Source: Solirubrobacteraceae bacterium
GTDB lineage: Bacteria; Actinomycetota; Thermoleophilia; Solirubrobacterales; Solirubrobacteraceae
DNA: 64,000 bases
Direction of reading: 5' to 3'
Assembly: GCA_017882375.1 (NCBI GenBank)
Contig: JADGPP010000008.1
Coordinates: forward strand, 1 to 64,000
Positions 49,400 to 64,000 of this stretch are shown here, one piece after another. The position numbers were made by a program, and so were the translations under genes. The first letter of the stretch is position 1; each line of letters opens with the position of its first letter. A model generated the notes under the pieces. That model searched no databases. It was not told the DNA's origin and saw only the letters and a program-made list of their open reading frames with translations.

Positions 49400-50419
49400 C
49401 TACGGCTCCAGCAAAACGGCGCCGCCTGCCGAAACGCGCGTGAGACGCTCGTCGTGGGGCCACGCCCGCAGCAGTGGCCTGTATCGCCCCAGGTCCGGTT
49501 CGGGAGCGCCACGAAATTTGTAGAAGTGCAAGCAATAGCCGTCGTTGTCCGTCAGAACGATGCGCAACGAGTCGTAGGCCCGCAGGCGCGGCGACAGCGC
49601 GCCGCGCTCGATCGCTGAGCGGACGGTGCCTGCCACGACGTCTGCGAGTTGGACGCACGCATCCTCCTCCGAGCGGACCCACGTGCGGTCCTTAAGAAGC
49701 TTGCCCAGCAGCGTGTGTTGTCCGCTCGGGTCATCGAAGCACCGAAAGGGGTGCTCCGGCCGGTTCGCCCACACAAACGGCAGATCGAGTTTCAGGCGCT
49801 TGGTCGACCCGATCATTCGCTCGAGATGCTCATCGACATAGCGCTCACCCGCCTTCAGTCGACCAGTCTGCTTGGCGTCGAACACAAATCGAAACTGTTC
49901 GAACTCGGCATCCCACTCAGGCTCGCTGTAGCGCAGGCACGCGCGGCGAACCGTCTCGAGGATGAGTTCGGGGACCTGCTCGGCCTGGATGAAGTCGTCG
50001 TCGGACATACGTTCGTGGGTCGCGGAACCCGCCACGCGCTCGAGCAGCTCATCGATCGCCGCGATGCCGGCGTAATCCGGGTTGGCGGCCAGGACGCGCG
50101 CACGCCCCCTGGCGATCGCGGCCGCTTGACGCAGGCGGAAGTCCGCCACGATCGGCCTCGTCATCATCTCGCTGTCGGTCACGTACGCGACGGCCGCGAT
50201 CTGGTGCGCTGCCAGAAACGCGGCGACATCGCTGACCCAGGGGGGCTTCATTGCCGAGGACTTCAGCTCACTCCGACCCCACCGCAGGCACGCATCCGCG
50301 ACAAACCGCTCGACCGCATCGAGCCTAGAGTCGGGCACGACCAGTGCGCAGAGAACGTAGGACTCAAACCGCCCGCTCCCGAGCCCATAGTTGCCGCTCT
50401 CATCGACAGCTATCTTCAC
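49400..50419 (-). CDS. DUF3800-family protein
   Basis: The 339-residue protein opens with 'KIAVDESGNYG', the DUF3800 N-terminal strand with its conserved Asp-Glu-Ser-Gly. Near the end it has 'ACVQLADVVAGTVRSAIERG', the Q-L-A-D segment of the same family. The fold is thought to be RNase H-like with acidic residues. Such proteins are frequent in mobile and defence-rich DNA, but their activity is not established. It is divergent from the RiPP precursor with 59 bp between starts, so the two genes share a promoter region. Confidence 0.75.
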   Translation of the reverse strand: MKIAVDESGNYGLGSGRFESYVLCALVVPDSRLDAVERFVADACLRWGRSELKSSAMKPPWVSDVAAFLAAHQIAAVAYVTDSEMMTRPIVADFRLRQAAAIARGRARVLAANPDYAGIAAIDELLERVAGSATHERMSDDDFIQAEQVPELILETVRRACLRYSEPEWDAEFEQFRFVFDAKQTGRLKAGERYVDEHLERMIGSTKRLKLDLPFVWANRPEHPFRCFDDPSGQHTLLGKLLKDRTWVRSEEDACVQLADVVAGTVRSAIERGALSPRLRAYDSLRIVLTDNDGYCLHFYKFRGAPEPDLGRYRPLLRAWPHDERLTRVSAGGAVLLEP

Positions 50420-50478
50420 CTGCCAATTTTCCCACCGCGTGCGGACTTGACCGTGGTGGCGCCGGGTATCATCATGCC

Positions 50479-50703
50479 GTGACCCAAGCCTGCGGTACCA
50501 ACCTCGAAGCGCGGCCGTGGCTCCTGGACCTGGCTACCCGCCAACAGGACACGGGTCCCGCCCCGGGCAACCCGGTCTACGACGACGCGACGCAGATGAC
50601 CTACTTCGGCGAGCCCGTCCGCGAGCTGGCGATCACGTCGCAGCTGAGCGTCGGGACCAAGAAGGCCGATCGGGAGACGGGCGAGGACCAAAAGGGCTTC
50701 TGA
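50479..50703 (+). CDS. Candidate graspetide (ATP-grasp RiPP) precursor peptide
   Basis: The 74-residue peptide starts at a GTG. 'RPWLLDLATRQQ' (residues 12-23) and 'YDDATQMTYFGEP' (34-46) match the leader pattern of the putative ATP-grasp-modified RiPP family: a Pro-Trp early motif, then Tyr-Asp and Gln. The C-terminal core (about T53-F74) concentrates Thr/Ser/Lys acceptors (T53, S54, S57, T60, K61, K62, T67) with Asp/Glu donors (D64, E66, E69, D70), as needed for ester or amide macrocycles. An ATP-grasp gene starts within its stop codon. The link is strong by context but unverified chemically. Confidence 0.75.
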   Translation: MTQACGTNLEARPWLLDLATRQQDTGPAPGNPVYDDATQMTYFGEPVRELAITSQLSVGTKKADRETGEDQKGF

Positions 50704-51656
50704 CGCGCCCGGTAGTCCTGATCGTCACCAACGAGCGAGACGTTGGTGCCGACTTTCTGGTGCGTGAGCTCGACGAAAGGGGCGTACCGGTCGTGCGCTT
50801 GAACTCCGAGCGCGGACCCGATTGGCAGCTGACGCTCGACCCGTTCGAGGGCTGGCAGATTGCCCGCGGGCCGCACTCGCTCGCAGCGAGCGAGTGCGTC
50901 GGTGTTTGGTGGCGCCGCCCAGAGGTGCCTGTGCTCGCGATGGGTGACTCCTCGGAGACGCTCGCCGATCAATGGCGGATGTTCCTGGGCGCTCTCGCGA
51001 CAACCCCGGGACCGACTTGGGTATCCGATCCAGGGCAGATCAGGCTCGCCGAGAACAAGGCGCTCCAGCTGCGCGCCGCACGCGCCGCCGGACTGAATGT
51101 GCCGCGAACCATCTGGACCAACGACGTGAACACGGCACGCGGCTTCATCGAGTCTTGCGGCGGCACCGCGGCGGTCAAGTCGCTGACCACCGCCTGGTGG
51201 GAGGAGCCCGACGGTGCGAGCTTCGTCTACGCCTCGCTGCTCAGCTCGAGCGAGCTTCCCCGAGCCGCTCGGCTCGCTCTCGCGCCCGTCGTCTTTCAAC
51301 AGCCGGTCACGCCCAAACGCGACATCCGCGTGACAGTGGTCGAAGAGACGGTCATCGCCGCGATCCAGATTCTCTCAGACGACGACGCTGACCGTCCGAT
51401 CGATTGGCGTCTCGCCGAGCAGCATCCCTGGGCTGCGTATGACCTTCCGGAGCGCGTGAGCGACGCCTGCCGTGAGCTCGTGAGTTCGCTGGGGCTGCGC
51501 TTCGGCGCGATCGACTTTGCCCTGGACGCGGACGACCGGCTCTGGTTTCTCGAGCTGAACCCGAACGGCGAGTGGGGCTGGCTGCAACGGGTCGGCCTGC
51601 CGATCGCGGAAGCTCTCGCGGATACCTTGACGCGAAGCGGGAGCACGGGCGGATGA
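50700..51656 (+). CDS. ATP-grasp RiPP maturase (SAV_5884-like), CTG start proposed
   Basis: The protein aligns from its first strand ('RPVVLIVTNERDVGADFLVR') with graspetide ATP-grasp ligases. No ATG, GTG or TTG fits; CTG at 50700 overlaps the precursor stop as CTGA and gives 318 residues. The ATP-grasp core includes 'ENKALQLRAARAAGLNVPRT', 'IRVTVVEETVIAAIQI', and the metal/catalytic end 'GLRFGAIDFALD' with 'FLELNPNGEWGWLQ'. It should form side-chain ester or amide links in the 74-residue precursor. The usual accompanying methyltransferase is absent; a membrane protein is coupled instead. Confidence 0.82.
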   Translation: MTRPVVLIVTNERDVGADFLVRELDERGVPVVRLNSERGPDWQLTLDPFEGWQIARGPHSLAASECVGVWWRRPEVPVLAMGDSSETLADQWRMFLGALATTPGPTWVSDPGQIRLAENKALQLRAARAAGLNVPRTIWTNDVNTARGFIESCGGTAAVKSLTTAWWEEPDGASFVYASLLSSSELPRAARLALAPVVFQQPVTPKRDIRVTVVEETVIAAIQILSDDDADRPIDWRLAEQHPWAAYDLPERVSDACRELVSSLGLRFGAIDFALDADDRLWFLELNPNGEWGWLQRVGLPIAEALADTLTRSGSTGG

Positions 51657-52345
51657 AGCGCCCTAGCGCACCCGCATGGTTGCGCGCCGCGCTTCTCTCG
51701 GACCCGTTTTGGCGTCTGCTGCCCTCGCCGGCCATCGTCTACCTGAACCGTGCGCTCGTGACGACGCCGGTCGAGGTTCCAGCGATGCCTAAGTCAGAGT
51801 GGTCCCAGCGCGAGCGTCGTGCGCTCCTGGACCGCAGCGAGGATCGGCTTCGAAACATCGAGGGCAAGGGTCCCGGCCTTGCGGCGATCACGGCTGTCGT
51901 CGCGGCGGCCGTTCTCCTGGCGCTCACCGGGTGGGGTGAGAGCGAGTGGATCGCCAGGGTCCTGCTGGTGCTAGCGACCTTATATCTCGCGCTGAGTCTT
52001 TGCACGCCGCTTCACCTCGTGGGGCCGGTGTCCCGCCACACGCTCACCGTTGAAGATCTCCAGGAGGCCGCAGCCGATCCTCACCCGGAGGAATCACTCG
52101 CGGAGAAATCAGCAGACTACGCAGCCATGAACGACTTGCAGAACACTCGCCTGGCAAACCATCTTGACGCCGCCCGACGCGAGCTCTCCTACGCGATGGC
52201 ACTCGTCATCGTCTGGGCTGTACTCGTGCCTGTGACAGGCGTTCTGCGCGCGGATCACGCTGCCTCGACGCCCAGCCCTCCATGGGCTTACCCGCATGGC
52301 TTTCGGCTTCACTGGCCGCCGGGCTTCGACGCTGCAGGCCAGTAG
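51653..52345 (+). CDS. Three-helix membrane protein coupled to the graspetide operon
   Basis: ATG at 51653 overlaps the ATP-grasp stop as ATGA; the protein has 230 residues. After a ~75-residue N-terminus there are two close helices (about 78-97 and 103-123), a helical cytoplasmic segment (125-180, with 'DYAAMNDLQNTRLANHLDAA') and a third helix (185-205). This TM-TM-helical domain-TM layout resembles 2TM/SLATT and PycTM-type effector proteins. The similarity is architectural only. Alternatives are an immunity protein, an exporter part or a peptide-sensing receptor for the RiPP. Its 3' end overlaps the convergent cyclase by 37 bp. Confidence 0.6.
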   Translation: MKRPSAPAWLRAALLSDPFWRLLPSPAIVYLNRALVTTPVEVPAMPKSEWSQRERRALLDRSEDRLRNIEGKGPGLAAITAVVAAAVLLALTGWGESEWIARVLLVLATLYLALSLCTPLHLVGPVSRHTLTVEDLQEAAADPHPEESLAEKSADYAAMNDLQNTRLANHLDAARRELSYAMALVIVWAVLVPVTGVLRADHAASTPSPPWAYPHGFRLHWPPGFDAAGQ

Positions 52346-53133
52346 CGCCCGGCCTTCTCAATTTCCTTCATCGCCATGCGAGCCCTGTCCTCCGCGCTCA
52401 GCGAGGGCAGATAGAAGGCGCGTCGGAGGATCTCCCGTATCTCGACGTCGCCAACGTTCTTCATCTCGACTGTGCGGGGCTCCAGAAGATCCCATGGCGG
52501 AGGCATGCTGCCGGTCCCGCCATCGGGCAGCTCGTACTGCTTCGCCGGGAAGACCTCGTCCAGGTCGCGCTCAGCCCACTCTGTTGCCGGGAAGGTGATC
52601 GAGGAGGAGAATTTACCGTCGTCGATCGGCGTCGTTCCTGCGCACCGCGCGGCCAGCGCCACGGGAGTCCCGAACACGGAGCAGTTGTACTTCAGCGGGG
52701 TGCCGGCATGGCCGACGCTCACCCTGCCGGATGCGATCCCGATGTGCGGGGTGAACGCGAGCGCATCGTTTTCGGCCATCCATCGCGCCGCCTGCACGGC
52801 TTCGAGCAACGGGTCGCTCGAACCAAACTCCTTTGAGAACACGACCATCACCTCGTCGCCGATGTACTTGTCGATCAGCCCGTTGGTGTGCCTGAGCGCC
52901 TCGGCGCTGATCCACGCGAAGAAATTGTTGACGAAGATCAGCGTCTCGGTGGGCGTCAGGTCAGCGGTTCGGGCCGAGAACGCGGTGATGTCGGCGAACA
53001 GAACGGTGGCGTCGATCTCACGCCCGCGAACCGGGAATGAGGCTCCCCAGCCGTCATCGAGCTGGGCATCGACGCTAAGCATCGTCGCGTTGAGGAAATC
53101 GTTAAGGGAGTGGTATCGGTACTGGACGGCCAC
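52309..53133 (-). CDS. Class III nucleotide cyclase, single domain
   Basis: The 274-residue protein (GTG start) has one class III cyclase homology domain. The metal-binding D48 is in 'TVLFADITAFSA' and D93 in 'KYIGDEVMVVF'. The segment normally reading G-D-x-V-N-x-A-x-R is here 'GTPVALAAR', so the substrate-stabilising Asn is Ala while the Arg is kept. No membrane, HAMP or receiver domain is attached. Stand-alone cyclases of this size next to a membrane or TIR effector are typical of Pycsar anti-phage systems (cCMP/cUMP), but ordinary cAMP synthesis is not ruled out. It faces the coupled membrane protein gene. Confidence 0.78.
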   Translation of the reverse strand: MAVQYRYHSLNDFLNATMLSVDAQLDDGWGASFPVRGREIDATVLFADITAFSARTADLTPTETLIFVNNFFAWISAEALRHTNGLIDKYIGDEVMVVFSKEFGSSDPLLEAVQAARWMAENDALAFTPHIGIASGRVSVGHAGTPLKYNCSVFGTPVALAARCAGTTPIDDGKFSSSITFPATEWAERDLDEVFPAKQYELPDGGTGSMPPPWDLLEPRTVEMKNVGDVEIREILRRAFYLPSLSAEDRARMAMKEIEKAGRYWPAASKPGGQ

Positions 53134-53568
53134 GTCGCAAGCCTATCTGCGCCTGGGCGGCGCTGACATCGACGCGATAGAGCGGTTCCTAGCTGGACGG
53201 TACGGCTACTGGGAGGACGATGTCCCGCTCGAGGACCCGTTCGGGACGCTTGTAGCTAGGCCATGAGCGCTCGAGCTCCATGGGGACGTTGCACGACCCG
53301 CAAGTCGTCGACCTGAAGGTGCGATAGAAACGAGCGGACAATGTCTTGCTTGCTGACGGTCATCGGGTCGGTGCAACCGGCCCGCGACGACGTGATGGTC
53401 GACTGGCGTATTGAACCGACCCACCAGACCGTCTGGACCGATCGTAACCGGGCCCGGGGGTTCATCTCCTTCGATGAGTTCCGACGGGCCTATCGAGCAC
53501 TTCATGCCGAGGATCCGCCGCGTCAGGACGCCCACCACTGGGCGGCCTGAGAAAGCTCAGCGACAGCG
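53134..53568. other. Intergenic region without a confident gene
   Basis: This 435-base stretch lies upstream of both the cyclase (minus) and the nitrilase-like gene (plus). One plus-strand frame, 53341-53550, could encode a 69-residue protein ending 'SFDEFRRAYRALHAEDPPRQ' plus a short tail. It has no clear ribosome site and no recognised family, so I leave it as a possibility. Confidence 0.4.
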
Positions 53569-54927
53569 ATGATGCGAAGTGACGGCCATCCTGCCGACCC
53601 TGCCTTGGAGGAGCGCATCCGCACGGCTCCCACCTTGTGGCGGCTTGCGTGCGACCTGCTGGCATCCTGGCGCGAGGCCGGCGTCGAGACGTCACCTAAC
53701 GATGACGCCGACGATGTCCGTTACTCGGCGTGGGCGGAGGTCGTAGAGCAGACTGAGGATCTGTTTGCCGGTGTCCGGACCGCCGAGCAGATCACGCAGG
53801 AGGAGCGCTCTGGCCTCGTGCAGATGATCGCCGCTGCGCCGAGCCTCTCCGACGCCGTGCACGCAGCGGCGTGGGGGCTGGCGGTGTCTGCGAACTACAC
53901 GTTCTTCCCAGCTTGGCGAGACGAGCTCGAGTCCAAGCCGGTGGCCCTCGCGCCAGGCGACATGTATCCGGTGGCCGATGCGCCGTGGGTGCTACGTGAG
54001 GGCCTAGCACTTAGCCCTCGTCCCGCTTCCCTGAGCAGTCCGAAGGCGGGCGAGCTTCCGACGATCCGGGTACATGACGGGAGCTTCGACGTGACCATCG
54101 ACACCTCGCTGGAGCGCCCGCTAGAGGCCATCGCAGCGGGACTCACTCAGGCGGCTGCAGGACACACGAACGCCGACTGGACCGAGCTCAGCATTCCTCC
54201 CGGGGACCTCGTGTTCCCCGTCGGGCCCGCGGATCCAGCGATCCAGTACGAGCGGCTCGAAGCGCTGCTGGAGGAAGCGCGCGTCGCCGGCGTGCCGCTC
54301 ACCGTCCTTCCTGAGCTGTGCGTCACCGCCGAGCACGTCGAGCACATAGCACCGCTTGTGGAAGCTTTCGAGCACCCCGCGCTCGTGGTCGCCGGCAGCC
54401 ACCACACGCTCGTGGATGGCGAGCCCGAGAACGTCGCGGTCGGGCTGCTTGCCGGCACAGATGGCCGCATGACCCAGGCCAAGAACGTTCCGTTCGCCAA
54501 TGAGGTCGTCCCCGGCCGACCGTCGAAGGAGGGCATCCGCTCTCGCACTCGGCCTCGGCTGTCGGTCTATCCCGCGGACCGCTACCGATTCGGCATAGCG
54601 ATATGCCGTGACCTGCTGGACCAGCGTGTCCGCGAGGCATACGACCGGATGGGCGTGAACGTTCTGCTCGTTCCAGCGCTCAGTGAGAAGACGCAGCCGT
54701 TCCTCCAAGCCGTTGCGGCGCGTGTTGCTAGCGCCCAGGCGCTCACGATCGTGGTCAACGGACCCCTAAACGGGCCTTCTGGTGGGGCGCTGCGACCTGC
54801 CATCGTGGTCGGCCAGCCGGTGGCCGATGATGCGGTCGTCGAGCATCCGACGTCGGATGCAATCGGCGTGACGGTCTTCGACCTGCCGTTCAGGTCGGAC
54901 GATGATGGGGTAGATCCGATTGAGTAG
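53569..54927 (+). CDS. Nitrilase-fold (carbon-nitrogen hydrolase) protein with extra N-terminal domain
   Basis: The last ~250 of 452 residues carry the nitrilase-superfamily triad: E249 in 'TVLPELCV', K305 in 'TQAKNVPFA' and C346 in 'GIAICRDLL'. The first ~180 residues are an additional helical domain without a known motif. The enzyme should hydrolyse or transfer an amide group. Its placement among defence-like genes, and not in a nitrogen-metabolism operon, is unusual. The 'PGRPSKEGIRSRTRPRLSVY' region between Lys and Cys is basic. A second ATG one codon downstream is equally possible as start. Confidence 0.72.
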   Translation: MMRSDGHPADPALEERIRTAPTLWRLACDLLASWREAGVETSPNDDADDVRYSAWAEVVEQTEDLFAGVRTAEQITQEERSGLVQMIAAAPSLSDAVHAAAWGLAVSANYTFFPAWRDELESKPVALAPGDMYPVADAPWVLREGLALSPRPASLSSPKAGELPTIRVHDGSFDVTIDTSLERPLEAIAAGLTQAAAGHTNADWTELSIPPGDLVFPVGPADPAIQYERLEALLEEARVAGVPLTVLPELCVTAEHVEHIAPLVEAFEHPALVVAGSHHTLVDGEPENVAVGLLAGTDGRMTQAKNVPFANEVVPGRPSKEGIRSRTRPRLSVYPADRYRFGIAICRDLLDQRVREAYDRMGVNVLLVPALSEKTQPFLQAVAARVASAQALTIVVNGPLNGPSGGALRPAIVVGQPVADDAVVEHPTSDAIGVTVFDLPFRSDDDGVDPIE

Positions 54928-55779: not shown

Positions 55780-56841
55780 ATGGAGTCTGTCGTAACAGAT
55801 GCTGGCCATCCGCTGCGTGACACGCATTTCATGTGGCTTGAGATAACGAGCAACTGCCAGCTCGAATGCAGCCACTGCTACGCCGAGAGCGGGCCAGGTC
55901 AAGGTCACGGAATCGTCTCTGCTGATCAATGGATGCAAACGCTCACGGAAGCGGCGACCGCCGGAGTCCAGGAGGTCCAGTTCATTGGTGGCGAGCCAAC
56001 AGCTCATCCAGAGCTGCCCCGCTTCATAACGCACGCGCGTCAAACTGGGCTGCGCGTCGAGGTGTTCTCAAATCTGTTCTCGATCCGCGAGCACGTCTGG
56101 CAAGCCCTCGCTCAGCCCGGCGTCCGCCTCGCAACCAGCTACTACTCCTCGGGCGCTGAGGTTCACGACAAGATCACTCACCGCGCGGGGAGCTTCGGAC
56201 GCACGAGAGCGAACATTACGGAGGCGGTGCGACGGGGCATTCCACTCCGCGTCGGGCTGATCCGGTTGTTTGAGGACCAGGACATCGACGCTGCGATGGA
56301 GGAACTCGTAAGCATCGGAGTTCATCGGGGCGCCATCCGCGTGGATGATCAGCGCGGCGTTGGGCGCGGGAGGGGCTCAACAGCCTGTACCACTGAAGAC
56401 GAGCTCTGCGGGAAGTGCGCTGGTGGCGTATTGGCGATCATGCCGAATGGCACAGTGCAACCCTGTGTCTTTTCGCGTGACGCGAGATTCAACGTAGGCA
56501 ATATCACCGCCGATAACCTCACATCAGTGCTCGATGGCGAGCGGCTACACCGGATGAGAGAGGACCTTACGTCGGTGTTCCTCGAGCGAGGGCTTATTGG
56601 GGTCGATTGCCCCCCGGCTGAACCGACAGGTGCGGTCGCCCAGTGTGGGCCGGCCGGGGGTGGAGGTCCGTGTGGGCCCGCACGTACGCAGAGCGGCGGG
56701 CCCGGGTGTAGCCCAGCGTGTGCGCCGGCCGGCAACTGCAACCCCATCGTTAACCCGCCACCTTGTAACCCGATTGCGGGCCACCCTCCGCGGCCGGAGC
56801 CTCCGCCTCGACCGCCGGGACCAGTCTGTTCACCATACTGA
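55780..56841 (+). CDS. Radical SAM protein with Cys/Pro/Gly-rich C-terminal tail
   Basis: The 353-residue protein has the radical SAM cluster motif C26-x3-C30-x2-C33 ('CQLECSHCY'), the SAM-binding 'FIGGEPTAHPEL' and a SPASM-like Cys region ('CGKCAGGVLAIMPNGTVQPC'). Residues ~285-353 form a low-complexity tail with repeated Cys in Gly/Pro surroundings ('CGPAGGGGPCGP', 'CSPACAPAGNCNP', 'PEPPPRPPGPVCSPY'). The tail may bind extra Fe-S clusters, anchor a partner or itself be a modification substrate. The winged-helix gene upstream may regulate it. No obvious precursor peptide was found nearby. Substrate unknown. Confidence 0.82.
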   Translation: MESVVTDAGHPLRDTHFMWLEITSNCQLECSHCYAESGPGQGHGIVSADQWMQTLTEAATAGVQEVQFIGGEPTAHPELPRFITHARQTGLRVEVFSNLFSIREHVWQALAQPGVRLATSYYSSGAEVHDKITHRAGSFGRTRANITEAVRRGIPLRVGLIRLFEDQDIDAAMEELVSIGVHRGAIRVDDQRGVGRGRGSTACTTEDELCGKCAGGVLAIMPNGTVQPCVFSRDARFNVGNITADNLTSVLDGERLHRMREDLTSVFLERGLIGVDCPPAEPTGAVAQCGPAGGGGPCGPARTQSGGPGCSPACAPAGNCNPIVNPPPCNPIAGHPPRPEPPPRPPGPVCSPY

Positions 56842-57066: not shown

Positions 57067-59316
57067 ATGAGCGAAGACAACGACGATCCCGGCTGGTTTG
57101 CCACCGAACTCGACGACGAGCAAGCTGACGCACTCAGAGAGGCGATGGACGCCGCGATCGCCCAGGCGAGCCCCAATTACGGTGCTGCGCTCCGCCGGCT
57201 CGAGAGTTCCGCTCGTGCGGTTCCGCCGTTCGATCTGATTTGCGTCACCGCCTTCTATTTTCTGACCGGAGAGGCAGGGGTGAACCCTGAGTACAACCGG
57301 CCGGAGGACATCTTTCAGCACCACGTCGAACTGATGCACGCCTTCGCGCTACGCCGCCCACTCGACGAGGCCGAGCCGGCAACACGCTTGCAGGATGGGA
57401 TGCGAGACGTGCTCGAGGCCGTCAAGGAGGCAGTCCAGGCTTTCATGCTCGTGGAGATGGCCGGCATCTCAGCCCAACAGGATGAGGGCCGCCGCCGGCG
57501 AGCATCGACGATCGCAGGAATGCGGACTCACGCAGCGACCGTCCGCGGCTGGTCCTACTACACCGACCTAGCGCAGGTGCTCGCTGAACTGTACGCGCCG
57601 ATCGAGTCTCAAATCCAGGATGCCGTCGGTGTCAGCCCGACCGCGCTGGTGGCGTGGTGGTGGGCCGTCGCGGAGAAGATTGATGAGCGGATCGCGGCTC
57701 ACCGCCAGCAAGTACACGACATTCTTACCGCACCGTTTGACGACGCCTGGCCGGCGTTGATGAAGGGGGCGTTCCCCAGATTGCCAGCTGAGCTCGACCA
57801 GGTACTCATGGCTCGTCTCCGGAGCGATGAGAAGCAGCGCCAGGCATTCACGATCATCGCTGCCGACCTGAACCTCTACCAAGTCTTCGCAGTCACGATC
57901 GACGAACTGGTCGACTGCTACCCCGGCGGCGTCCAGCGCCTCGCGCTCGAACGGGTCCTCGACAACTGGAGCCTCACGTTCGGGGCCACGGGCGAACTGC
58001 CGATCCATGCGTTGCTACAAGACAACCCTGTCCTGAGCCGGCCGATCGTGAAGCTGGATCCCGGCCTCTATCTCTGGTGCGTCGCATCCGCGTTCAACCA
58101 TTCGGCGTTCGCGATGCTCGAGCAGCTGTTCCAAGGGAATCCCACGCTCTGGGAGAGCTACACGACCCGTCGGGCGGCCTTCCTCGAGGCCAGAGTGGCC
58201 AGCGCACTCATAGACGCGTTCCCTAACGGTCGGGTGTTGGGCAACGTCGTGTGGGTCGACCCCGCGGATGGCAAGGAGTACGAGACCGACGTACTCGCTC
58301 TTGTCGGAAGCCATGCCCTGATAGCCGAGTGCAAGTCCGGGCGGCTCTCAAGGCCAGCACAAAAGGGCCGAGGACGATGGTTCCGCGACGACCTGAACGA
58401 GCTCGTCGTCGAGCCCGCCCGCCAGGCCCAGCGATTCGCGGACTACCTGACCGGACAGTCCGGTGTCCTCGAGCTTGCGACGCGTGATGGGCAGCCCGTC
58501 ACGATCGACGCGACCGCTGTGCGAGCCGCGATCACCATCGGCGTCACACTTGAGCCGCTCGCCGGGCTGCTCCCCGGCATCGGCGAGATCGTGGAGTCCG
58601 AGCTCACCGAGAGGACGGTCGACAGCCTCACACACTCTCTGACCCTGTTTGATCTGCTCGTGGTGCTTGAGATGCTCGAGCACCCGAGCGAGGTGCTGCA
58701 CTACATCCTTCGTCGCTCCCAGTTGGAGCGCAACCAGTTCCTCGTCGGTGATGAGACCGACCTGCTCGGCTTCTATCTACTTACCGGTTTCAACCTCGGC
58801 AGCGCGGAGTTCGATACCGAGATGCAACGGATGCGCCTGATTGGGCTCTCGGACACGATCGACACCTACCACTACATGGTTGAGGCGGGAAAAACGCCCG
58901 AGACGCCGCGCGTGCGGCGGACCGACTGGTGGGAGTCGCTACTGACGACGGTCGAGGATCGCGCGGGCCCGCGGTGGACCGAGTTGGGGATCGCTCTTTG
59001 CAACGTCGCGTATGACGAGCAGCGAGAGTTCGAGCAGGCCTTTGAAGAGCTGCGCACCTCGATCGCGTGTGGGGACCGGCCGGCAACAGACTTCGTACTG
59101 TTCGCCAATGGTCCCCCCGAGAGGCGGGACTACTTCGTCGCCGTCGTCCTAAGCGAGCCGGCGAGCGAGGCCACTCGGTCGCAGATAGCGAACGCCGCGC
59201 GGCAAGTCATGGCCGAGGATCAGGACATCGAGCGGGTGATCATTGTCGGTTGGCCACCGGTCCGCCACATCGCGTCGTACCACACCCTCGCGCTTTTCGA
59301 CCGGCGCGCTGGCTAG
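57067..59316 (+). CDS. Large protein with PD-(D/E)XK nuclease-like domain
   Basis: The 749-residue protein is mostly helical in its first ~370 residues. A PD-(D/E)XK-type core follows: 'ARVASALIDAFPNGRVLGNV' (helix with Glu/Ala face), D408 in 'KEYETDVLAL' and E421-x-K423 in 'LIAECKSGRL'. This spacing is that of restriction-endonuclease-like folds. The C-terminal ~250 residues show no recognised motif. Such large single-gene nucleases occur in defence islands, and this gene sits beside transposase remnants. The role in DNA cleavage is inferred from the motif only. No methyltransferase partner is visible. Confidence 0.7.
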   Translation: MSEDNDDPGWFATELDDEQADALREAMDAAIAQASPNYGAALRRLESSARAVPPFDLICVTAFYFLTGEAGVNPEYNRPEDIFQHHVELMHAFALRRPLDEAEPATRLQDGMRDVLEAVKEAVQAFMLVEMAGISAQQDEGRRRRASTIAGMRTHAATVRGWSYYTDLAQVLAELYAPIESQIQDAVGVSPTALVAWWWAVAEKIDERIAAHRQQVHDILTAPFDDAWPALMKGAFPRLPAELDQVLMARLRSDEKQRQAFTIIAADLNLYQVFAVTIDELVDCYPGGVQRLALERVLDNWSLTFGATGELPIHALLQDNPVLSRPIVKLDPGLYLWCVASAFNHSAFAMLEQLFQGNPTLWESYTTRRAAFLEARVASALIDAFPNGRVLGNVVWVDPADGKEYETDVLALVGSHALIAECKSGRLSRPAQKGRGRWFRDDLNELVVEPARQAQRFADYLTGQSGVLELATRDGQPVTIDATAVRAAITIGVTLEPLAGLLPGIGEIVESELTERTVDSLTHSLTLFDLLVVLEMLEHPSEVLHYILRRSQLERNQFLVGDETDLLGFYLLTGFNLGSAEFDTEMQRMRLIGLSDTIDTYHYMVEAGKTPETPRVRRTDWWESLLTTVEDRAGPRWTELGIALCNVAYDEQREFEQAFEELRTSIACGDRPATDFVLFANGPPERRDYFVAVVLSEPASEATRSQIANAARQVMAEDQDIERVIIVGWPPVRHIASYHTLALFDRRAG

Positions 59317-62428: not shown

Positions 62429-62880
62429 GTAGACCCTCTAATCCTCGGCGTTACCCAGCGCTCTGCATGGCTTTTCCCGCCGCTGCTCCTACGCGTGAAT
62501 TGCGAGCGTGAGCGTCCCTCCGACTCACACGCTCGGTCCTCGTCCGATCCGAGCGTGAGCGCGGCCCTTGCTGGGACGATCGCTCGGCGCGGAAAGCAGC
62601 AGCGCGCCCGAGTGGTGGCCCGTGCTGTCAGGCACAGGCCACCACTCGAACTGTCATCCGAGGCTCCTCTTCTTCATCTATGGCGATATAGCGATCCTGG
62701 CAGCCCAAGAGATCCGTCGTCGGCAGGCTGCTGCACGTGCGCGGAGGGTGATGATCGGGCGTGTGCGCTCTACGCGCAGCGGCGAGACCCTGTCGTCACG
62801 CGCACATCGGTTACCCCGGCCAAGCTGTGTTAGGGTGCCCTACTTCGGGTGCCCTAAGACCAAGAGGCAGGAGGCAGCAC
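62429..62880. other. Intergenic region before the terminal radical SAM gene
   Basis: These 452 bases hold no convincing gene. An imperfect inverted pair CTCACACGCTCGG (62524) / CCGAGCGTGAG (62549) is visible. The ribosome site AGGAGG of the next gene is at about 62869-62874. Confidence 0.5.
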
Positions 62881-64000
62881 GTGAGCGCCACCATCGATCA
62901 TCGCCAGCTCTATCGCCTGCCGTGGTCGCTGCCCGACAACGCCATCGCCTGGCTTGAGCCGACCAAGAAGTGCAACCTGGCGTGCCTGGGTTGCTACCGC
63001 GAGAACGACCCGCGGGGACACAAGACACTCGATGAGGTCCGTCACGATCTCGAGGTGTTCAAGCGCTTTCGGACCGTTGACGGAGTGTCGATAGCGGGCG
63101 GCGACCCGCTCGTGCATCCGGAGATCGTCGAGATCGTCCGAATGGTCGCGCAGGATGGCCTCAAGCCGATCGTCAACACCAACGGCCTGGCGCTCACCGA
63201 GGAGCTGCTCGGCGAGCTCAAGGGCGCCGGCCTGGCCGGCTTCACATTTCATATCGACTCCAAGCAGGGCCGCCCGCGCTGGAAGGATGCGGATGAGATC
63301 GAGCTGTGCGAGTTGCGCCAGCACTACGCCGAGATGGTGGCCGCGGCGGGAGGGATGGGCTGTTCGTTCAACGCGACGGTCTATGAGGACACGCTGCGCT
63401 ACGTGCCCGACATCGTGCATTGGGCGCAGCGCAACATCGAGACGGTCCACACCGTCGTGTTCATCGCCTTCCGCGCGGGCGTCGTCGGCAACGACTTCGA
63501 CCACTACGTGCAGGGAGAGCCGGTCGATTTCTCCACGATGCCCTACGCCACCACGGACCAGACTCCGCACGAGCTGCAATCGACCGACATCGTGGCCGAG
63601 ATTCGCAAGCGCTTCCCCGACTTCGCTCCCGCCGCGTACCTCAACGGGACCGAGCGACCCGACACCTTAAAGTGGCTGCTCACAGGTCGCCTGGGCACGA
63701 AGGAGCGGATCTACGGCTACGTCGGAGCCCGCTCGATGGAGCTCGCGCAGACCTTCCACCACCTCGCGACAGGGAGGTATCTGGCATACACGGGGCCGCA
63801 GGCGCTGGGCCACGGCAGGGCGATGCTGCTGCTGTCTGCGCTCGACCCGCGGCTGCGAACGATCGCCCGCCGCTGGCTGGCGGCCGGCGGGCGCAGGCCC
63901 TCACGGCTGCTTGAGAGGCTCCGCTTCCAGTCGGTGATGATCATCCAGCCGGCGGACATCTACGAGGACGGACGGCAGAATATGTGCGACGGCTGCCCCG
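62881..64000 (+). CDS. Radical SAM/SPASM-type protein, C-terminus beyond window
   Basis: A GTG preceded by AGGAGG opens a frame that runs off the right edge after 373 codons. The radical SAM motif is C31-x3-C35-x2-C38 ('CNLACLGCYREND'), with the SAM-binding 'IAGGDPLVHPE'. The last visible residues 'MCDGCP' look like the beginning of auxiliary-cluster Cys. The middle ('GFTFHIDSKQGRPRW') is unlike well-known maturases, so the substrate is open. It does not resemble the tailed radical SAM protein at 55780 beyond the shared fold. Confidence 0.8.
   Translation, partial: MSATIDHRQLYRLPWSLPDNAIAWLEPTKKCNLACLGCYRENDPRGHKTLDEVRHDLEVFKRFRTVDGVSIAGGDPLVHPEIVEIVRMVAQDGLKPIVNTNGLALTEELLGELKGAGLAGFTFHIDSKQGRPRWKDADEIELCELRQHYAEMVAAAGGMGCSFNATVYEDTLRYVPDIVHWAQRNIETVHTVVFIAFRAGVVGNDFDHYVQGEPVDFSTMPYATTDQTPHELQSTDIVAEIRKRFPDFAPAAYLNGTERPDTLKWLLTGRLGTKERIYGYVGARSMELAQTFHHLATGRYLAYTGPQALGHGRAMLLLSALDPRLRTIARRWLAAGGRRPSRLLERLRFQSVMIIQPADIYEDGRQNMCDGCP

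Follow-up and report, generated by a model that had tools for sequence, protein, structure and literature searches.

A radical SAM protein with a conserved Cys-x-Pro tail, proposed to be its own enzyme-fused RiPP-like substrate

The locus considered here raises the question of why a radical SAM protein should end in a long tail rich in cysteine and proline, when no separate precursor peptide is found around its gene. The gene lies in a window of 64,000 nucleotides, which is the whole stretch of DNA analysed (contig JADGPP010000008.1, from a Solirubrobacteraceae bacterium). The original prediction had offered two roles for the tail, either to hold extra clusters or to act as an in-cis substrate of the enzyme. 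The evidence gathered here favours the in-cis substrate, extra clusters being a possibility that concerns the first tail Cys especially.

A radical SAM head followed by a disordered tail

The open reading frame at positions 55780-56841, on the forward strand like all features described below for this gene, encodes 353 residues and contains no internal stop. Its prediction as a radical SAM protein is confirmed, as PF04055 (Radical_SAM) matches residues 21-173 (55840-56298) with an E value of 1.6e-15 and 58.1 bits, against a cut-off of 29.5, and the ligands of the SAM-binding [4Fe-4S] cluster, C26-x3-C30-x2-C33 (55855-55878), occupy invariant columns. The protein thus carries both the CX3CX2C cluster motif and the domain match by which the superfamily is recognized. 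AlphaFold models this core domain with a pLDDT mostly above 90 and an SkfB/SuiB-like fold. NCBIfam models, including those of the sactisynthase and ranthisynthase type, match only the core domain and fall far below their cut-offs, and no Pfam or NCBIfam model extends into the tail; therefore, this is a family of C-x-P-tail radical SAM proteins for which neither collection has a curated model.

Past the SAM cluster, the head contains three more Cys in invariant columns, C210-x2-C213-x15-C229 (56407-56466), rather than the ligands of the two auxiliary clusters that define a full SPASM domain, and PF13186 (SPASM) gives a partial match over residues 213-260 (E 5.1e-7). The motif of the second half of SPASM, CX2CX5CX3C, is absent from the window protein, and the C-x-P tail starts at its place. 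In the predicted structure, the three Cys lie beside strands 217-220 and 225-227 and helices 247-252 and 254-269, as in a Twitch (half-SPASM) domain and, since the second-half motif is missing, the fold of the enzyme is predicted to be Twitch-like. The SPASM-like region that had been proposed is thus retained in its first half and lost in its second.

The tail spans residues 277-353 (56608-56838) and has 77 residues with exactly eight Cys, at positions 277, 289, 298, 310, 314, 320, 329 and 350, in good agreement with the Cys- and Pro-rich tail of about 70 residues and about eight Cys that had been predicted. All eight are found in a C-x-P context (CPP, CGP, CGP, CSP, CAP, CNP, CNP and CSP), so that the repeat foreseen as Cys-Gly-Pro is real, but its unit is C-x-P and glycine is specific to two of the eight. 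Residue shuffling of the tail reaches eight C-x-P units at p = 4e-5, although the tail is very Pro-rich. It contains no Asp. AlphaFold gives a pLDDT below 50 over residues 276-337 and 346-353, indicating disorder next to a confidently modelled head, and in a short-tailed relative, L108, the predicted confidence declines along the tail from an initial value of about 67 to a final 45.

Conservation and variation of the tail across the family

Homologs were collected by tblastn from plasmids, phage records, whole genomes and IMG/VR contigs, yielding 59 members that share 33-50% identity outside the tail. In the plasmid search, members appear at E <= 1e-34 and are separated by a clear gap from PqqE and other ordinary radical SAM proteins; the first single-sequence scans of genome contigs and viral contigs with the window protein had given nothing useful. 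Members are found in Streptomyces, Amycolatopsis, Embleya, Rhizobium and Paraburkholderia, in prophages of Mycobacterium abscessus and on other phage or prophage contigs; both pSCL3 and the large plasmid of S. clavuligerus bear members. Plasmids and prophages alike carry such genes, which suggests that their role is accessory and not a housekeeping one. One member from the taxonomic family of the window is 43% identical over residues 16-350, and no close orthologue of the gene was found in the window's genus.

Six head Cys are invariant in the family, those of the SAM cluster (C26, C30 and C33) and the auxiliary ones (C210, C213 and C229), the latter keeping the C-x2-C-x15-C spacing in 58 of the 59 members, with x14 in the other one. 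The C-x-P tail is a family trait under selection because it is present in 56 of the 59 members and because 268 of the 279 tail Cys (96%) are in C-x-P, compared with 2 of 398 head Cys. Shuffles of the family tails give a mean of 57 C-x-P units and a maximum of 78, far from the 268 observed. When only the 23 members less than 55% identical are considered, 113 of 118 tail Cys are still in C-x-P (shuffle maximum 43), while in 33 other radical SAM relatives this context is found for 2 of the 102 Cys among the last 80 residues. The comparison of homologs that had been suggested to check the tail Cys shows them to be kept as C-x-P and not random, so that a tail absent or random in homologs, one of the refuting results named in the original prediction, does not occur.

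Around this conserved unit, the tail is highly variable. It ranges from 2 to 12 C-x-P units and from 15 to 94 residues, its first Cys lying 38-58 residues past the third auxiliary Cys. Five tails (L103, L106, L094, L064 and L113) contain duplicated modules, which token-preserving shuffles match at p values of 0 to 0.003; the tail of L103, for instance, has two copies of LGGCPPNDSNDC[NS]PA[SN][TS]EACAP[AK]Y. Such tandem-duplicated modules resemble, by analogy, those of multi-core RiPP precursors. Several close pairs have a tail that is conserved at least as well as the head (92% versus 69% identity between L041 and L068), whereas in more distant pairs it has almost wholly diverged (16% versus 42% between L064 and the window protein). 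This pattern of variation is the one known from RiPP core peptides.

A few members depart from the common arrangement. Locus L090 (626-2264, genome G689) has two tandem members, neither of which carries a C-x-P tail, and no separate peptide of the C-x-P type lies close by. The member at L078 (6910-7668, genome G227) ends ahead of the tail, and a gene for a protein-aspartyl methyltransferase (PAMT) follows about 1.6 kb further on, the DNA in between looking insertion-like. On an IMG/VR contig, the member at L115 (249-1202) is followed by genes that, by eye only, resemble those of phage tails or gene-transfer agents.

The copy in Mycobacterium phage prophi68-1 (L048, 2860-2956), which lies next to an integrase and is identical in prophiGD04-1, has a TGA exactly at the place of the first tail Cys (C-G-P), beyond which the frame runs on with five C-x-P units. 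As the genome search had given a TGA inside several matches, readthrough past the tails was checked, and C-x-P beyond a TGA was found in this M. abscessus prophage copy only. No variant of the L048 TGA was found among the copies available for comparison, the two phage records being identical, and a hairpin 3' of it is weakly better than shuffles (z -2.1). The TGA could be a nonsense mutation or, less likely, a selenocysteine codon.

Genes next to the family members

In 27 members, the next gene, located -3 to 54 bases downstream, encodes a TIGR04188-type PAMT, and L104, elsewhere in the tree, is followed by a distant member of TIGR04188, giving a total of 28 PAMT-linked members. One such pair, with a short tail, is that of Streptomyces canus (L037). 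The motif C.P.{0,4}D[SGTN] is found in the tails of all 27 members with an adjoining PAMT gene versus 5 of 26 tails of members lacking one, and Asp makes up 15.7% versus 5.7% of the tail residues. On the tree, the PAMT trait changes three times (in essence a single gain and a single loss, to which L104 is added), so the link between PAMT and tail Asp comes down to two or three independent contrasts, none of them opposite, a number not significant alone. In a five-member subclade nested beside the PAMT-bearing members, the place of the PAMT gene is taken by a kinase-like one, recognized by eye and matching no Pfam model, and these five tails all end in C.PG.P.[ST].C.P[RK][NR], a motif found nowhere else in the set. 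Eight members near the branch of the window protein are accompanied by an APH-like gene, with PF01636 present in both of the two tested.

The window gene has no PAMT downstream, none of these partner genes adjoining and no conserved partner, and searches of the window genome, run without a positive control, gave no match to a PAMT or to an APH-like gene. No protease or exporter was consistently noticed next to the family genes. As for separate C-x-P-rich peptides, no open reading frame was convincing as genuine in about 50 loci, extending to the family the earlier statement that no precursor peptide is found around the gene.

Other genes of the window deserve mention. An ATP-grasp protein similar to ribosomal peptide maturases is encoded at 50589-51653 (TIGR04187, 229 bits, below cut-off), and the open reading frame upstream of it looks precursor-like by eye and matched no model. 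A link between the radical SAM gene and this ATP-grasp gene, 4 kb upstream, was rejected as inconsistent, since only L038 also has an ATP-grasp homolog near the radical SAM gene. The regions at 49400-54924 and 57067-59316 form a conflict-like neighbourhood with a DUF3800 protein, a Pycsar-cyclase-like nucleotide cyclase (52309-53133, reverse strand), a NERD-like large protein and a nitrilase-like protein, the last one weakly matching RT-nitrilase defence models. Another radical SAM protein is encoded at 62761-64000 and runs off the end of the window; it has CxxxCxxC close to where it starts, and a CDGC motif at the window edge.

The tail as an in-cis substrate, and its alternatives

The explanation proposed here, which is judged rather probable, is that the window protein, as a peptide-modifying enzyme of the radical SAM/Twitch type, has its own disordered C-terminal tail for a substrate, in the manner of an enzyme-fused RiPP-like core. 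It is favoured because of the hypervariable length, the duplicated modules and the disorder of the tail, the absence of an RRE and of a separate precursor, and a tail composition that follows the neighbouring tailoring enzyme. The best solved structural matches, SkfB (6efn, Z 24.3) and SuiB (Z 23.4), are both RiPP enzymes; the SkfB alignment to the window protein begins only at SkfB residue 91, and the N-terminal RRE has no counterpart in the family, where residue 23 is the median position of the first cluster Cys (range 9-39). What is observed comprises the domains, the invariant Cys, the conserved C-x-P units, the duplicated modules, the disorder and the neighbouring genes, and what is inferred is the in-cis modification with its chemistry, as well as any cleavage and the function of the tail. 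In the mechanism proposed, the core [4Fe-4S] cluster would cleave SAM, the auxiliary cluster, with only three invariant Cys, would offer an open iron site to bind a C-x-P thiolate of the tail, and the 5'-deoxyadenosyl radical would abstract a hydrogen from the tail, either from the Cys itself or from a residue beside it. Thioether cross-linking of the C-x-P Cys would be the most likely outcome, as the closest fold is that of a sactisynthase, and the second choice would be an oxidation of the Cys-to-formylglycine type, as C-x-P-x-R is the context in which anSME targets Cys. The same tail would then, in related loci, be the substrate of a second enzyme, PAMT on Asp or perhaps the APH-like kinase on Ser/Thr, whereas the window member would undergo radical SAM modification only, since it has no partner nearby and its tail is Asp-free.

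A metal-binding role of the tail, as a fourth auxiliary ligand, as a holder of extra Fe-S clusters (the role foreseen in the original prediction) or as an iron/sulfur or zinc store, is less easily reconciled with these data and is regarded as unlikely. It would account for a head in which the invariant auxiliary Cys number only three, arrays of Cys are common metal binders, and the tail starts 38-58 residues past the third auxiliary Cys, where Twitch enzymes have two more ligands (Cys385 and Cys387 in SkfB, PMC6231123), which concerns its first Cys above all; moreover, PAMT action on type II pamtide precursors depends on a zinc tetracysteine (PMC13001092). However, the number of Cys (2-12) and their spacing are too variable for a fixed cluster geometry, the constant feature being the Pro at +2, and neither duplicated modules nor a composition that tracks the neighbouring enzyme would be expected of a metal site, while the two L090 relatives do without any tail. 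That same tail-less pair, beside which no separate peptide is seen, also speaks against the in-cis substrate, as do the lack of a consistently neighbouring protease or exporter gene and, for the window gene, of a conserved partner and of a close orthologue in its genus. A flexible docking or redox element, such as a disulfide relay or a partner-binding site in an enzyme with a separate substrate, would suit the disorder and the downstream partner genes of most subclades, but internal duplication and hypervariability suit a substrate better, and no separate candidate is present in the about 50 loci or was reported for 249 radical SAM and PAMT pairs (PMC10787088); this reading seems still more doubtful.

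That the enzyme makes a small molecule, in the way of viperin or MoaA, with a tail that is incidental or regulatory, is very improbable. PADLOC pVip models do match, but over residues 21-136/138 only (E 9e-15), and the folds of viperin and MoaA appear lower in the structure list than SkfB and SuiB, which are peptide modifiers. The C-x2-C-x15-C arrangement, which we take to resemble the three-ligand cluster of MoaA, would count in favour of this role, but the family-wide conservation of C-x-P shows that selection acts on the tail. Finally, the tail could be thought of as a frameshift or assembly artefact, given that it is GC-rich and that an alternative frame is open. The chance of this is negligible, as the C-x-P array is in the same frame in 56 of 59 relatives, and the frameshift near 56600 contemplated in the original prediction is ruled out by homologs that carry this array directly after the same helix.

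Taking the tail again as an in-cis substrate, the wider proposal is that leaderless radical SAM enzymes acting as their own precursors would form a RiPP-like class, the hypervariable C-x-P tail being modified first in cis by the radical SAM domain and subsequently by an exchangeable partner, either PAMT or the APH-like kinase. This class would be spread over plasmids, prophages and chromosomes, and the radical SAM and PAMT pairs would find their missing substrate in it; the odds for this whole scheme are considered even. With its simple C-x-P rule and its exchangeable tailoring genes, such a class could serve as a platform for peptide modification that is evolvable and open to engineering.

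Comparison with known systems

In the subset of open-access literature that was searched, neither an earlier description of the C-x-P tail nor an example of a core fused to a radical SAM enzyme was found. Sactisynthases and ranthisynthases (SkfB, CteB, AlbA and StsB) have the fold closest to that of the family, and their substrates are Cys-rich, but they rely on an N-terminal RRE and on a separate leader-core precursor, both of which are lacking here. SkfB, like the window enzyme, is of the Twitch type and its auxiliary site is open, and CteB has an open Aux I site able to take a substrate Cys (PMC6231123); by analogy, the three invariant auxiliary ligands of the family would allow the same binding.

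PAMTs modify Asp in RiPP precursors (PMC10787088, PMC13001092), and the mining of 9408 of them by Lee et al. in 2023 yielded 249 clusters of two genes, one for a radical SAM enzyme and the other for a PAMT, next to which no genes for precursors or substrate proteins were found (PMC10787088). In these clusters the radical SAM gene is directly followed by one for a TIGR04188-type PAMT, as in the 27 members described above and L104, although not at the window gene, and they presumably belong to the C-x-P-tail family. It is fairly probable that the C-x-P/Asp tail, as an enzyme-fused RiPP-like core, would be their missing substrate. Being built into the enzyme, it would explain why no separate one lies beside such genes, and for pairs so far without a substrate (PMC10787088) one or two genes would suffice for a direct test, with no need to look for a precursor. 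In pamtides, imiditides and PAMT-associated FHA proteins, PAMT also acts on disordered peptides or protein tails rich in Pro, Gly and Asp (PMC10787088, PMC13001092). Unlike the family, those systems have no radical SAM enzyme described, and their substrates contain no C-x-P arrays.

The anSMEs are likewise radical SAM enzymes acting on the Cys of C-x-P-x-R, and some tails of the family hold CDPSR. However, anSMEs have two fully ligated auxiliary clusters and act in trans, whereas the family has no second-half SPASM Cys and departs from the seven-Cys motif. A parallel for the fused arrangement is that of the borosins of types I-III, such as the omphalotin enzyme OphMA (PMC8429565), in which the core peptide is attached to the C-terminus of its own enzyme, as the putatively modified tail is here. 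The borosin enzyme is an alpha-N-methyltransferase without Fe-S clusters, while in the family the Cys-x-Pro tail belongs to a radical SAM/Twitch enzyme, which has no borosin methyltransferase domain; if the proposal is right, the family would, to our knowledge, extend the borosin principle of an enzyme fused to its own core to radical SAM enzymes.
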